A stretch of 28,238 bases of DNA from a virus. The DNA lies in IMG/VR virus record IMGVR_UViG_3300045241_000045, positions 1 to 28,238 of that record. One strand, given 5' to 3'. Shown here piece by piece: positions 23,254 to 28,238 of this stretch. The position numbers and the translations under genes were made by a program. Every line of letters starts with the position of its first letter. Position 1 is the first letter of the stretch. A model generated the notes under the pieces. That model ran no database searches. It had not been told where the DNA came from and saw only the letters and a program-made list of their open reading frames with translations.

Positions 23254-24747
23254 TTACCCGCGTTCGGAAGGCTGAGGCGGCGTCTTCATGAGCTGATCGA
23301 GCCATCTGAGCCGGTCAGCTTCGTCGTGACCGTTGGCTCCTTCCAGCGCCCGGCGCGCGCTGGCCGGCCTCGGCGTCGGCCTGGTGTGATTTCCGCCGTC
23401 CCCGGGGCTTGTGCTGCCGACCGGCAGGCGGGGCATCGCCGGCGGCAGCGGATCCGCCGTCGCGCCCGGCGAGGTCTGCGGCAGCAGGTGCTGCACGACC
23501 GGCGCCGGCGGCGGGGGCGGCGGCGGTGGCGCGGCCTTCAGCTGCGACAGGTCCCCCGACTCCACCGCCGCCACCGCCGACTCGTGCGTGTACCCGGCCT
23601 GCACCAGCGCCAGCACCGCCTGAGCCCGCACCAGGGCGGCCTGCGCCCGCGCCGTCTCCGAGTCCTGCAGCGCCGCGATATCCGACACGTCGAACCACAG
23701 CCGGTTACCGGCGGGGACGTCCGCGATCTGCGACAGCGCCCCGCACACGCCGCGCCACTGCGGGCGCGCCCACAGGTTCGCGAACTTCTGCATGCTCTCC
23801 TGGAAGCCCCGGCCGGCCCCGCGCAGGGGCTCCAGGCCGACCAGGACGCCCGGCACCGAGCACGCCGCCAGGATCCGCTCCGCCCCCACCGCCGAGACGC
23901 CCGAGAAATCCATCTGCGACAGCGAGTTCCCGACCAGCGTCAGGTCCGCGCCCTGGTCCAGGATCAGGGTCTTGCCCGCGTTGTCCGGGCCGCCGTACCG
24001 GGCGGCCATCCGCTCCCGGAGACTGTCGACGGTGGACGGCTGCAGCTTCTGCGCGTACTTGATGATCACGTTCGGGCTGGCGTCGTTCTGCAGGTAGCGG
24101 ACCTTGAACCGGCTCATGTCGTCGTCGCCCTGGACGTCCCGCATGATCGGCGTCAGCGGCGACATGCCGCGGAAGTCGGCGGCAGGGTCCGGGATGGGCG
24201 CCCAGGCCACGCACTCCTCCGCGGGGACGAGGAACCCGGTGCCCTTGTCCAGGACGCCCTTGGGCGGTTCGTGCCAGTAGCCGACCGGGCGCCGGTACCA
24301 GCCGCCGCCGCCGACGCGGACCACCTCGGACACGATGGTCGTCCAGTCGGGGCGCAGCCTGACCAGCCGGCCCTCATCGGGGGGATCCCAGATGTACGCC
24401 TGGCCGGCGAGGAACGCGTCCTGCTCCATCCGGGCCAGCAGGTGCCCCGTCGTGCTGTTCGGGCCGAACGGCTCCTCCAGCTTCGCCAGCGCGGTGGTGC
24501 CGAACAGGTGCTTGTCGTCTTTGGCCTGGTACTGCAGCCGCGCCTCGGAGAACAGGGCCATCCGGATCAGGGCGGCGGAGAACACGATCGCGGACGAGGA
24601 GTTGGCGTTCTGCGCGAACTGGGCGAGCTGCGGCAGGACCGGCTCGCGGTCGGGGGAGGCGTAGGAGGTGGTCAGGACGGCCGCGCCGGAGGCGAGGCCC
24701 TCCCAGTAGCCGTCGCGGCGGATCAGCCGGTCCCACAGCCGCGTCAC
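23254..24747 (-). CDS. Portal protein, HK97-type (497 aa)
   Basis: Forms the dodecameric ring through which DNA passes. Seen: an early segment SSAIVFSAALIRMALFSEAR (about 51-70), EQDAFLAGQAYIW, a wing region with RLVRLRPDWTTIVSEVVRVG, then VAWAPIPDPAADFRGMSPLT and DVQGDDDMSRFKVRYLQNDA (about 208-227) with NVIIKYAQKLQPS, and AERILAACSVPGVLVGLEPL followed by a GRGFQESMQKFANLWARPQW helix. All fit HK97-type portals. The C-terminus is Pro-rich (a run of eight Pro) and acidic. GTG at 24747 overlaps the preceding stop (GTGA). Confidence 0.92.
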   Translation of the reverse strand: MTRLWDRLIRRDGYWEGLASGAAVLTTSYASPDREPVLPQLAQFAQNANSSSAIVFSAALIRMALFSEARLQYQAKDDKHLFGTTALAKLEEPFGPNSTTGHLLARMEQDAFLAGQAYIWDPPDEGRLVRLRPDWTTIVSEVVRVGGGGWYRRPVGYWHEPPKGVLDKGTGFLVPAEECVAWAPIPDPAADFRGMSPLTPIMRDVQGDDDMSRFKVRYLQNDASPNVIIKYAQKLQPSTVDSLRERMAARYGGPDNAGKTLILDQGADLTLVGNSLSQMDFSGVSAVGAERILAACSVPGVLVGLEPLRGAGRGFQESMQKFANLWARPQWRGVCGALSQIADVPAGNRLWFDVSDIAALQDSETARAQAALVRAQAVLALVQAGYTHESAVAAVESGDLSQLKAAPPPPPPPPAPVVQHLLPQTSPGATADPLPPAMPRLPVGSTSPGDGGNHTRPTPRPASARRALEGANGHDEADRLRWLDQLMKTPPQPSERG

Positions 24748-25165: not shown

Positions 25166-25260
25166 CGTCGTGTCCCTTCGTCTTCGCTTGTCTCCGCGTA
25201 CCGGTGACGGTAATCTCCCGATACGGTTACTCTTCTCCTGATGACGGGGTAGACTTCGCG

Positions 25261-25445
25261 GTACGACCGCACCCTGACGCGCCCGCACTGCCCACGCCAC
25301 CCCCGCCCGCGCCTGCCCCCGCCGTGACCGCCCTATACCGCCCGTCCCTTACCTCACTCGCACACTCCGGGCCCACCCGCCTCCGTCCTCGCCCCGCCGT
25401 GCCCATCCCGCCCGCCGCAGCCCTCACCTAACCGAACGGAGCATC
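25261..25445 (+). promoter_or_regulatory. C-rich, purine-poor leader spacer 1
   Basis: The plus strand of this spacer is very rich in C and poor in G and A, unlike coding DNA on either side. It contains CCCTTACCTCACTC at 25346-25359 and CCCTCACCTAACC at 25421-25433, two of five matches in this region to CCTYACCTVAC. ACGGAG precedes the ATG at 25446 by four bases. TAGACT at 25250-25255 could be a -10 box, with TTACTC 17 bases upstream a poor -35. C-rich unstructured RNA is what Rho-type termination sites look like; here it would be a leader. Confidence 0.5.
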
Positions 25446-26030
25446 ATGCAGATCACAGCGAAACTCGTCGGGACGAAGCCGCTGCTTCTCCACAACGTCG
25501 ACCTCGCCAACCCGCTCAACCCGTGGGCGCGGAAGATGGCCGACCTGCGCGGCACGCCAAGCAAGCGCCGCACCGAGAAATGGCACGAGGAAATGGCCTA
25601 CGCCAACTTCATGGGCGCGTTCTACGAAATCCCCGGCGTCGAAGGTGTCGCCATCCCCGCCGAGAACGTGCGCCGGTCGATCATCACGACCGCGAAGGCG
25701 TCACGGCTGGGCACGCAGGTGCTGCGGGCGCTCATGGTCACCGTCGCCGCCATCCCGCTCATCTACGACGGGCCGAAGACGCCCCAGGAGCTGTGGGACG
25801 CGCAGAAGTGGCACCTGACCCGCATGATCCGGGGCACCGGAGGCGCATCGCCGACCACGTACCCGATCTTCCGCGAGTGGGCCGTCAAGGCACCGTTCGA
25901 GCTTGACGAATCCCTGCTCAACGTCCGGGACCTCACCGAGATCGTTGAGCGCGCCGGCCGGATCGAAGGCCTCGGCGCGTCACGCAAGCAGGGTTACGGC
26001 CGGTTCGACGGGCTTATCGAGACGTCCTAG
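25446..26030 (+). CDS. RAMP-like phage protein of unknown function (194 aa)
   Basis: Function unknown. The N-terminus MQITAKLVGTKPLLLHNVDL reads as the first strand of a ferredoxin-like fold with PLLLHN after it, like RAMP proteins of CRISPR systems (Cas5, Cas6, Cas7 types). The C-terminus has GLGASRKQGYGRF at about 176-188, close to the RAMP glycine-rich loop (G-x-G-x6-G-x-G). Between are AIPAENVRRSIITTAKASRL (75-94), a strand RALMVTVAAIPLIYDGPKTP and YPIFREWAVKAPFELDE. No other cas-like gene is near. I recall proteins of this general type in other phages without a function; an RNA or ssDNA binding role is inference. ATG 25446 follows ACGGAG. It opens a two-gene plus-strand cassette. Confidence 0.8.
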   Translation: MQITAKLVGTKPLLLHNVDLANPLNPWARKMADLRGTPSKRRTEKWHEEMAYANFMGAFYEIPGVEGVAIPAENVRRSIITTAKASRLGTQVLRALMVTVAAIPLIYDGPKTPQELWDAQKWHLTRMIRGTGGASPTTYPIFREWAVKAPFELDESLLNVRDLTEIVERAGRIEGLGASRKQGYGRFDGLIETS

Positions 26031-26254
26031 CCATGCCTCGCCATCCCCCGCCAGCCCATTACTCCCCGGTCCATCCCCCGCCTCGGCCTTCCTGATCTTG
26101 ACTCGCCTTCACACGCCATTCCTTACCTGACCAGCTCTCGCCCCTGCAGCCCAGCCCGGAACTGAACGCTCCTGCCCGGCTCTGGCCCCTCCTTGCCTAG
26201 CCCCCACTCAGCACGCCACCCCAGGCCTCGCCTCACCTGACACCGGAGAACCGC
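26031..26254 (+). other. C-rich spacer 2
   Basis: Non-coding between the two cassette genes. Plus strand is C-rich and G-poor. TTCCTTACCTGACC at 26119-26132 and GCCTCACCTGACACC at 26230-26244 repeat the spacer 1 word. ACTGAACG at 26161-26168 plus CCTGCCCGGC at 26171-26180 recur around the end of the next gene (26766-26773 and 26781-26790). GGAG lies six bases before the ATG at 26255. No hairpin with a T run seen; a Rho-dependent terminator is plausible. Confidence 0.5.
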
Positions 26255-26770
26255 ATGACAGACCTATTCTCACCCCGCCGCCCGGACGGGCAAAGCGAGT
26301 GGCGCGTCATCCACGCCGCCGCTCTCAAGCTCACTTACGGCTCCGACCTCACGTTTGACGAGATCGCCAAGCTGCTCGACACCGACGACCGCAGCCGCGC
26401 CCACCGCGCCGTCCGCCGCTGCAACCAGCAGTTCACCCGCGAGAACATCCCCCGCGTCCTCGGCAACGTACGCGGCGCCGGCTACCGGGTCCTCAAACCC
26501 TCCGAATACGCCACCGCCGCGATCGCGCTCCAGGTACAGGGACGCCGCAAAGTCAGCAACGCCCTCGACCTGATGCGCACCGCGCCGATCAACGACATGA
26601 GCCCGCAAGCCCAGGAATGGGCCCACAAAGTGACCCTCGTCCTCATGGACAACGAACTGCGGCTACGTTCCCAGGAACAGTGGCAGCAGACCGCCGAGCA
26701 GCGGCTGACCGAACTGGAACGCCGCGCCGGAATCCCGCCCGCCATCATCGGCGGCGAGATCGAAGACTGA
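26255..26770 (+). CDS. Winged-helix-like DNA-binding protein (171 aa)
   Basis: Probably a DNA-binding protein. Residues 14-95 show a helix-turn-helix with wing: EWRVIHAAALKLTYGSDLTF, DEIAKLLDTDDRSRAHRAVR (about 35-54), RCNQQFTRENIPRVLGNVRG, then AGYRVLKPSEYATAAIALQ, with the wing strand GYRVLKPSE as in winged-helix proteins. The rest is helical, ending in a coiled coil QQTAEQRLTELERRAGIPPA. I cannot assign a family; regulators and replication initiators of phages both use this fold. ATG at 26255 has GGAG six bases upstream. It follows the RAMP-like gene in the same direction, separated by a C-rich spacer, and faces the terminase. Confidence 0.75.
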   Translation: MTDLFSPRRPDGQSEWRVIHAAALKLTYGSDLTFDEIAKLLDTDDRSRAHRAVRRCNQQFTRENIPRVLGNVRGAGYRVLKPSEYATAAIALQVQGRRKVSNALDLMRTAPINDMSPQAQEWAHKVTLVLMDNELRLRSQEQWQQTAEQRLTELERRAGIPPAIIGGEIED

Positions 26771-26944
26771 ACGATCCAACCCTGCCCGGCCCGTGCCTTC
26801 CCCTGCCGATCCCCGCCCTGACCCTTCTGCCCGCGCCTAGCCACCCCACTACCAGCCGCGCCCCCTCGGCCCTTACCGCCCCAGTCCTCTACTCCGCCAC
26901 CCCGGCCAGGCCAACCCGCCACCAGCCTTACCTCACCTAACGCT
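26771..26944 (+). other. C-rich spacer 3, between cassette and terminase nuclease
   Basis: A convergent gap with C-rich, G-poor plus strand. AGCCTTACCTCACCTAACGC at 26924-26943 is a double match to the CCTYACCTVAC word. No intrinsic terminator hairpin seen. Since both flanking genes converge here, Rho-type termination of the plus-strand message is a natural guess. Confidence 0.5.
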
Positions 26945-27451
26945 TCACACCGTCCAGACGGACGGCGCCGAAAGCCGCTCCCAGTTCAGGAAAGCCCAGG
27001 TCGCCAGCGTGGCCGCGATCAAAGGCGATTGATCGACCTGCACTTTCGGGTCCCACGCCGCAGCGCCGCTCAGGGGACGCTGCTGCGCGGCGCGCACTGC
27101 CGAAGTGAGCGGCCCCTGGTCCAGGTGCTCAAGGCCGCCGTCGCTGACGAGATCCAAAAAGAGGCCATGAGCCACGGCCACATCCTGCGCCGTCGGCTGC
27201 AATGCGATGATGCCCGCCTCGAACAGCGGCCTGATCAGCGTCCCCGACTGGCTCTTAGGGTTCACCACCACGGCCACCGGGTCATGCCGCTCGTACAGCA
27301 CACCCATCCGGGCCACCAGCAGCCGCGGGTGATCGTAGAACGGGGCCAGGTCGACCAGGATCTTCCCCGAACTGCTACGCCCGGCCGCCACGATCGAGCC
27401 GTGCTTGCGGTCCTCGCTGATCGCGGCCCCCAGGGCGATCTCGCCGCTCAC
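26945..27451 (-). CDS. Terminase large subunit, separate nuclease part (168 aa)
   Basis: The nuclease half of TerL that cuts concatemeric DNA, here in its own frame. It aligns in order with TerL C-termini: IALGAAISEDRKHGSIVAAG (5-24), PVAVVVNPKSQSGTLIRPLF (58-77), VAVAHGLFLDLV, AVRAAQQRPLSGAAAW and VDQSPLIAATLATWAFLNW (139-157). The GTG at 27451 overlaps the stop of the ATPase ORF (GTGA), so it is coupled, and the ATPase frame ends where the linker should be. At positions where such domains carry metal-binding Asp, residue 10 is Ala and residue 64 is Asn; only Asp140 remains. Whether it is active is open. A one-base frameshift splitting a normal gene is the main alternative. Confidence 0.82.
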   Translation of the reverse strand: MSGEIALGAAISEDRKHGSIVAAGRSSSGKILVDLAPFYDHPRLLVARMGVLYERHDPVAVVVNPKSQSGTLIRPLFEAGIIALQPTAQDVAVAHGLFLDLVSDGGLEHLDQGPLTSAVRAAQQRPLSGAAAWDPKVQVDQSPLIAATLATWAFLNWERLSAPSVWTV

Positions 27452-28238
27452 AGCGCGGCCTGCCGCACAGTCGCCGCGCCCCACGCGTCCTCGGCGATGA
27501 CCTCCCACGCGCCGTCCGGGTCATCCCACACGCCCAGCGCCTCGCGCATGAAATCCTCCGGGCTCAGCAGCTTGCGCATCCGCAGGATCGCCTTCGCCGG
27601 GGTCCGCCGCGGGTAGGACGGGTTCGCCTTCCGCCACGCCGCCCGGTCATCCGGCCCGCAGCCCGCCGGCGCCGACAGCTCCACGTACAGGACGCCGGTG
27701 CTCTCGCCGGCCAGCGCGTCAGCCCGCAGCCGGGTCACGACCTCGGACGGGTCCGACGGCTTCGGCGGCGTGCACATCAAGATGACCTGCGGGTTAACCG
27801 CCTGGTTCATCGTCGGGACCAGGTCCGACAGCGCCATCTCCGTCAGGATCTGACCCTCGTCAAGCACCAGCCGCCGGACCTTCGTGAACCCGCGGACCGA
27901 GCCCCGCTCCCGGGCCGCGAACACGATCCGCGAGCCGTTACGGAACGGGATGCACTCATTGCCCGCACCCGTCGTGATGTCGTCGTAGTCGATATGCGGC
28001 ACCAGCAGCGGCGACTTCGCCCACGCCCGCATCTCGTTGAACGACTCCCGGGCCACCTTGAACCGGTGCGCCGTCCACACCGTCACCGTGCCCGGGTTGA
28101 TGATCGAATCAGCGAACACCACGCCGCCGACATCGAACGTCTTGCCCACCTGCCGCGGGATCGACAGCAGCGCCGTGTCCGCCGCGTACAGGCCATCGCG
28201 CGACTTCGACAGCAGGCACCGGTTCAGGTCACGCTGCC
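27448..28238 (-). CDS. Terminase large subunit, ATPase part (partial, cut by right edge)
   Basis: The DNA-packaging motor ATPase. The start lies beyond the window; the frame is open to the edge and reads GLYAADTALLSIPRQVGKTF, so SIPRQVGKTF (28135-28164) is the Walker A motif. A GTG at 28149 encodes the Val of QVGKT and is internal, not a start. RLVLDEGQ (about 27850-27873) is Walker B with the catalytic Glu, and MCTPPKPS is the coupling motif. It ends WEVIAEDAWGAATVRQAAL, just where nuclease sequence normally continues, because the nuclease lies in the -1 frame. The stop overlaps the nuclease GTG by four bases (GTGA). No slippery heptamer is seen in the overlap. Confidence 0.92.
   Translation of the reverse strand, partial: QRDLNRCLLSKSRDGLYAADTALLSIPRQVGKTFDVGGVVFADSIINPGTVTVWTAHRFKVARESFNEMRAWAKSPLLVPHIDYDDITTGAGNECIPFRNGSRIVFAARERGSVRGFTKVRRLVLDEGQILTEMALSDLVPTMNQAVNPQVILMCTPPKPSDPSEVVTRLRADALAGESTGVLYVELSAPAGCGPDDRAAWRKANPSYPRRTPAKAILRMRKLLSPEDFMREALGVWDDPDGAWEVIAEDAWGAATVRQAAL

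Follow-up and report, generated by a model that had tools for sequence, protein, structure and literature searches.

The 28,238-base IMG/VR virus record analysed here (the window, meaning this stretch at its full length) very probably carries a genuine VIPR system, in a form in which the fixed part of the guide RNA has changed. VIPR, described only recently, is an RNA-guided weapon with which phages fight one another; according to its description (PMC13142463), the system combines a RAMP protein with a single RRM, a vap gene, and vrRNAs in which GGY and NN alternate and which read double-stranded DNA by skipping one base, and the definition is broad enough to allow either GGY or 'a related consensus'. 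In the mechanism proposed for the window, the single-RRM RAMP, Vipr, would form a coat along vrRNAs whose 5-nt units each consist of a fixed triplet and a variable NN. The NNs would pair with double-stranded target DNA, skipping one base (usually the wobble base of a codon), and this pairing would shut down the homologous genes in sister phages that compete with this one. The fixed triplet of the window and its closest relatives, read on the strand of vipr, would be SCC (S = G or C), replacing GGY. We infer that the arrays are transcribed from the plus strand and that the resulting RNPs form, bind DNA and cause repression to the benefit of the phage. CRISPR effector proteins have been proposed to descend from VIPR, and a clade with a differing scaffold would show that the fixed part of the VIPR code is evolvable.

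The vipr ORF (25446-26030, plus strand, 194 aa) is bracketed by the portal gene (23254-24747, minus strand) and the terminase ORFs (26945-28149, minus strand), and the initial annotation rightly assigned it to a phage late region since it sits there antisense to both. The cassette has the order array-vipr-array-vap-array, all on the plus strand: array 1 (25266-25432; ∼33 SCC-NN pentamers), vipr, array 2 (26030-26241; two contiguous, in-phase vrRNAs), vap (26255-26770; a DNA-binding-like accessory protein of 171 aa) and array 3 (26770-26940, ending in CTTACCTCACCTAAC). The terminase-portal distance is 95-1377 bp in siblings with no vipr in the gap, and 1.75-2.65 kb in those with the cassette. 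The carrier is, with high confidence, an actinophage-like tailed phage bearing a VIPR cassette antisense between its terminase and portal genes. The large subunit of the terminase in the window appears to be split between two overlapping ORFs, one for the ATPase and one for the nuclease (26945-27508 and 27448-28149, both on the minus strand); the same split layout is seen in locus L001.

A phmmer search of the PDB matched the 194-residue protein to chain 36pp_D, 'SUSP1 Vipr protein' (E = 1.5e-17), and a search of PHROGs matched it to phrog_4652, a family of unknown function (E = 1.9e-30). Pfam, NCBIfam and PADLOC returned nothing useful and no family for it, no Cas family in Pfam matched its sequence (the likeness to Cas proteins being one of fold only), and scans of genome contigs revealed no close relative. 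When modelled with AF2 from a 71-row alignment composed of the window and IMG/VR loci only, the protein was predicted with a pLDDT of 94.2 and a pTM of 0.87, while the use of only five alignment rows gave a pLDDT of 63. The motifs from which the initial annotation had deduced a RAMP fold are present, PLLLHN at residues 12-17 and GLGASRKQGYGRF near the C-terminus, and the fold itself was borne out both by the match to SUSP1 Vipr, a RAMP, and by the structure search against Cas5, Cas6 and Cas7 that it had called for: the top PDB matches of the model in Foldseek were Csm3/Cas7 subunits (E = 3.5e-7, probability 1.00). The glycine-rich segment does form a loop in the model (residues 175-186), lying between the last helix (160-174) and the final strand (187-193), a placement that, in the prediction, is as expected for the RAMP glycine loop. 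The C-terminal motif stands above chance because G171, R180, G185 and their neighbours are invariant, or nearly so, across 71 homologues. The model thus displays the predicted single RRM, glycine loop and thumb of a Vipr-type RAMP. Type III CRISPR RAMPs of the Csm3/Cas7 family share with it the RRM core, the glycine loop and a thumb-like hairpin; in contrast to their settings, neither CRISPR repeats nor Cas1 or Cas10 were seen in the window, so that the protein has neither the neighbouring CRISPR array or cas genes nor the Cas-family match that mark a CRISPR-Cas RAMP.

The gene following vipr provides the companion expected of a VIPR system. The product of vap belongs to phrog_5926 (E = 4.1e-5), the family of the SUSP1 gene that lies directly downstream of vipr and itself matches phrog_5926 at E = 1.1e-75; in addition, BLASTP matched it to gp77 of phage MakoManhole, a 'DNA binding protein' (E = 2e-7).

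All three intergenic stretches around vipr and vap are arrays of 5-nt units in perfect phase, tandem pentamers of a fixed triplet and a variable NN with the consensus SCC on the plus strand. The earlier statement that no repeat array lies near vipr therefore holds for CRISPR arrays but not for these pentanucleotide guide arrays, three of which flank the gene. In the best phase, CC occupies 25 of the 34 units of array 1, 30 of the 42 of array 2 and 25 of the 32 of array 3, as compared with maxima of 20, 20 and 19, respectively, in 2000 dinucleotide-preserving shuffles of each stretch (the null mean for array 1 was 13.1). No period-5 phase signal was found elsewhere in the 28-kb window, where other 170-base stretches gave 13 or less, and the same scan recovered the GGY arrays of SUSP1, used as a calibrator. 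Array 1 can be divided into two vrRNAs, with CTTACCTCAC (25348-25357) and CTCACCTAAC (25423-25432) at their ends, and those of array 2 are bounded by CTTACCTGAC (26122-26131) and CTCACCTGAC (26232-26241); the short CYTYACCTNAC is the sole conserved array end, as read from the DNA. Just upstream of array 1 lies a -10-like hexamer, TAGACT (25250-25255, plus strand), a putative promoter element; TAGACT, TATACT or TAGTCT with a similar downstream stretch precedes array 1 in the window, L001, L002 and L003, and L024 and L036, inspected by eye, are laid out alike, their GGC array being preceded by TTGACA-17-TAGANT-like elements. The genes of the window and L001 are 89-92% identical while their arrays are 53-58% identical, a hypervariability which, judged from this comparison, is as expected for guides.

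The NN pairs of the arrays were decoded in the phases tested, with skips of 0-3 bases, and compared with 70 sibling loci (467,861 bases). Reading with a one-base skip gave scores of 14.0 and 13.0, the maximum in 116 shuffled controls being 8.0; skips of 0, 2 and 3 reached at most 8.0 against the same loci, the level of their own shuffles. The best guide score within the family was 10.5, a value attained by none of 150 shuffle sets. Other registers and skips stayed at shuffle level, apart from low-complexity GG/GC runs. The base skipped in these guide-target matches has a constant place in the codon, most often the wobble position, and it is through such sequence matches that the one-base-skip targeting typical of VIPR is recognised here. 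The clearest case is a guide in array 3 (26833-26924, plus strand) which, read on the minus strand, spells W A F L R W E E L A K P G A W V V stop A: 17 of its 19 dinucleotides agree with the C-terminus of the L161 terminase, in phase with the codons and skipping the wobble base, and 13 of its first 15 dinucleotides are found in the terminase of several other siblings. Its 15-dinucleotide core scores 9 on the terminase of the window itself; with 9 of the 15 core dinucleotides still matching, self-protection would be only relative. For a guide of L001, 13 of 13 dinucleotides match the terminase genes of L118, L121 and L124, and the last, downstream guide of sister phage L101 matches 12 consecutive dinucleotides of the window portal gene (highest value in 10 shuffles, 8). 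Two weaker matches, that of another L001 guide to the start of the L002 vap (score 7.5) and that of a guide of L003 to the start of the window portal gene (8.0), are also codon-phased in homologous genes, although chance alone could give either score. For the guides of arrays 1 and 2, none of the collections searched yielded a convincing target. One of them, A2a, had no match in pattern scans, and the single matches of A2b (11 of 22 dinucleotides, in a contig of 47% GC) and A1a (9 of 18) were attributed to chance. Together with the vipr match described below, the decoded targets (terminase, portal, vap and vipr) would tell who attacks whom within one environmental phage family.

Two explanations that dispense with VIPR guides were weighed against these matches. 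The intergenic spacers are C-rich, and the period-5 stretches might be a compositional quirk of such DNA, with the RAMP binding RNA without guides; this is very improbable, given a phase signal that dinucleotide-preserving shuffles never reached and that is absent elsewhere in the window, and an NN content that matches homologous genes codon by codon and fails to do so when its order is shuffled. Equally remote is the proposal of the initial annotation that vipr encodes a stand-alone RAMP acting as a decoy or blocker of a type I/III CRISPR complex. The Cas7/Csm3-like fold would suit such a role, but guide arrays and a vap gene accompany the protein, its closest sequence relative is a Vipr and not a Cas protein, and the guides match genes of sister phages and nothing from CRISPR; the decoded targets already speak against that proposal.

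An important difference between the window and most of its relatives concerns the fixed triplet. Units of GGY+NN lie on the strand of vipr in ∼80 relatives, and GG arrays run along that strand in nearly all of ∼85 related loci surveyed, while in a clade of five loci (the window and L001-L004) GG is found only on the opposite strand; the strict GGY triplet is thus missing from vipr's strand in this clade. L041 is the one partial exception, its upstream GG arrays (-482 to -45) running opposite to vipr and its downstream ones along it. In confident interior units the canonical triplet columns are G89 G86 Y95, and those of the window clade, read on vipr's strand, are C41/G39, C65 and Y95; the pyrimidine before NN has therefore been kept, and it is mainly the first two triplet positions that differ. 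Since GCC and GGC are reverse complements, an SCC array mimics an inverted array, and as the target is double-stranded, the target matches cannot separate the strands.

The arrays might accordingly produce minus-strand vrRNAs (GGN-NN), if transcription of the late terminase operon ran on through them in antisense to vipr; the scaffold would then be near-canonical and the arrays inverted. The minus-strand reading of the window arrays does resemble GG-type arrays, the upstream arrays of L041 do lie opposite to their vipr, and the terminase genes are transcribed toward array 3. However, all three arrays would have to have been inverted, and GGY would be lost anyway, the third position on the minus strand being G41/C39 instead of Y. 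The conserved -10-like element precedes array 1 in the plus direction, no late minus-strand operon is seen in L004, whose neighbouring gene-like ORFs have the plus orientation, and the RNA-side loops of Vipr are altered. We regard transcription from the minus strand as unlikely. Plus-strand SCC vrRNAs are favoured with fair confidence because Y is kept, a third form of triplet exists in L101, the protein branches are long, the loops have changed and the -10-like element points in the plus direction. In L101 (G007:C1:10296-10859 and its flanks) the units are AGC-NN, unambiguously on vipr's strand, and the order is again array-vipr-array-vap-array. The branch leading to Vipr of the window clade measures 1.35-1.7 changes per site (support 100/100), and that of L101 Vipr 2.02. 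The canonical loop VKVGxARVxRTRPIF reads MIRGTGGASPTTYPIF in the window clade, and the canonical GLGDWRPRFGRF reads GLGASRKQGYGRF; these altered loops, as aligned, fit coevolution of Vipr with a changed RNA scaffold. The clade thereby suggests which protein loops may read the scaffold, making orthogonal VIPR tools and a protein-RNA code directly testable.

A related array was found in locus L102, a 66-kb, possibly incomplete contig (IMGVR_UViG_3300049456_000054) in which the 71-row profile gave no Vipr match at E = 0.01. Its terminase-portal gap contains one lone SCC-type array (L102:3911-4001), preceded by the same -10-like element and downstream stretch as array 1. The guide matches the start of vipr, in the part encoding IKAVGTKPLLL, with 10 of 11 dinucleotides (10 consecutive) in L001, L002 and L003 and 9 of 11 in the vipr of the window; its score of 10.0 compares with a highest value of 8.0 among 200 shuffles. 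L001 and L102 share one metagenome sample. Such a lone anti-vipr guide suggests a counter-weapon exploiting the enemy's own protein. It is about as likely as not that Vipr and its scaffold, which went from GGY to SCC in this clade and to AGC in L101, have changed together into mutually unreadable 'dialects' within one phage family, with the lone guides of vipr-less sisters turning the enemy's Vipr on vipr.

The locus resembles the VIPR of Escherichia phage SUSP1 and its relatives (PMC13142463) in its Vipr homologue, phrog_5926 vap, flanking pentamer arrays, one-base skip at the codon wobble position and targets in competing phages and other VIPR loci. It differs in its triplet (SCC in the plus-strand reading, instead of GGY) and divergent RNA-side loops, in having arrays also between vipr and vap, and in the antisense position of the cassette inside a late operon. 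In type II VIPR, as characterised in SUSP1 and P. fulva, the repeats number 9-16 and the 3′ tail is invariable and structured; as read from the DNA, the window has up to ∼33 units per array (∼33 in array 3) and no recognisable tail of that kind, only the short CYTYACCTNAC boundary. The Gordonia/Mycobacterium phages MakoManhole, Trine, LittleE and prophiBWHA-1 likewise combine vipr with period-5 arrays, and in MakoManhole and LittleE a phrog_5926 gene adjoins vipr; unlike those of the window, their GGC/GGT arrays lie on vipr's strand, and in MakoManhole, Trine and LittleE they are separated by tRNA T-arm-like hairpins. Hairpins of this type lie between arrays at L007:4789-4857, with similar ones in L006 and L008, and one was reported by ARAGORN as 'tRNA-???'; Rfam gave no match in the Gordonia/Mycobacterium phage loci searched. 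Judging from these hairpins, tRNA-type processing of the arrays of these phages is possible. Finally, at L108 (6434-7068) and L172 (G006:C1:27250-27627), about nine canonical GG arrays downstream of portal were noted, as was a Vipr-like protein of greater divergence (E = 3.6e-13).
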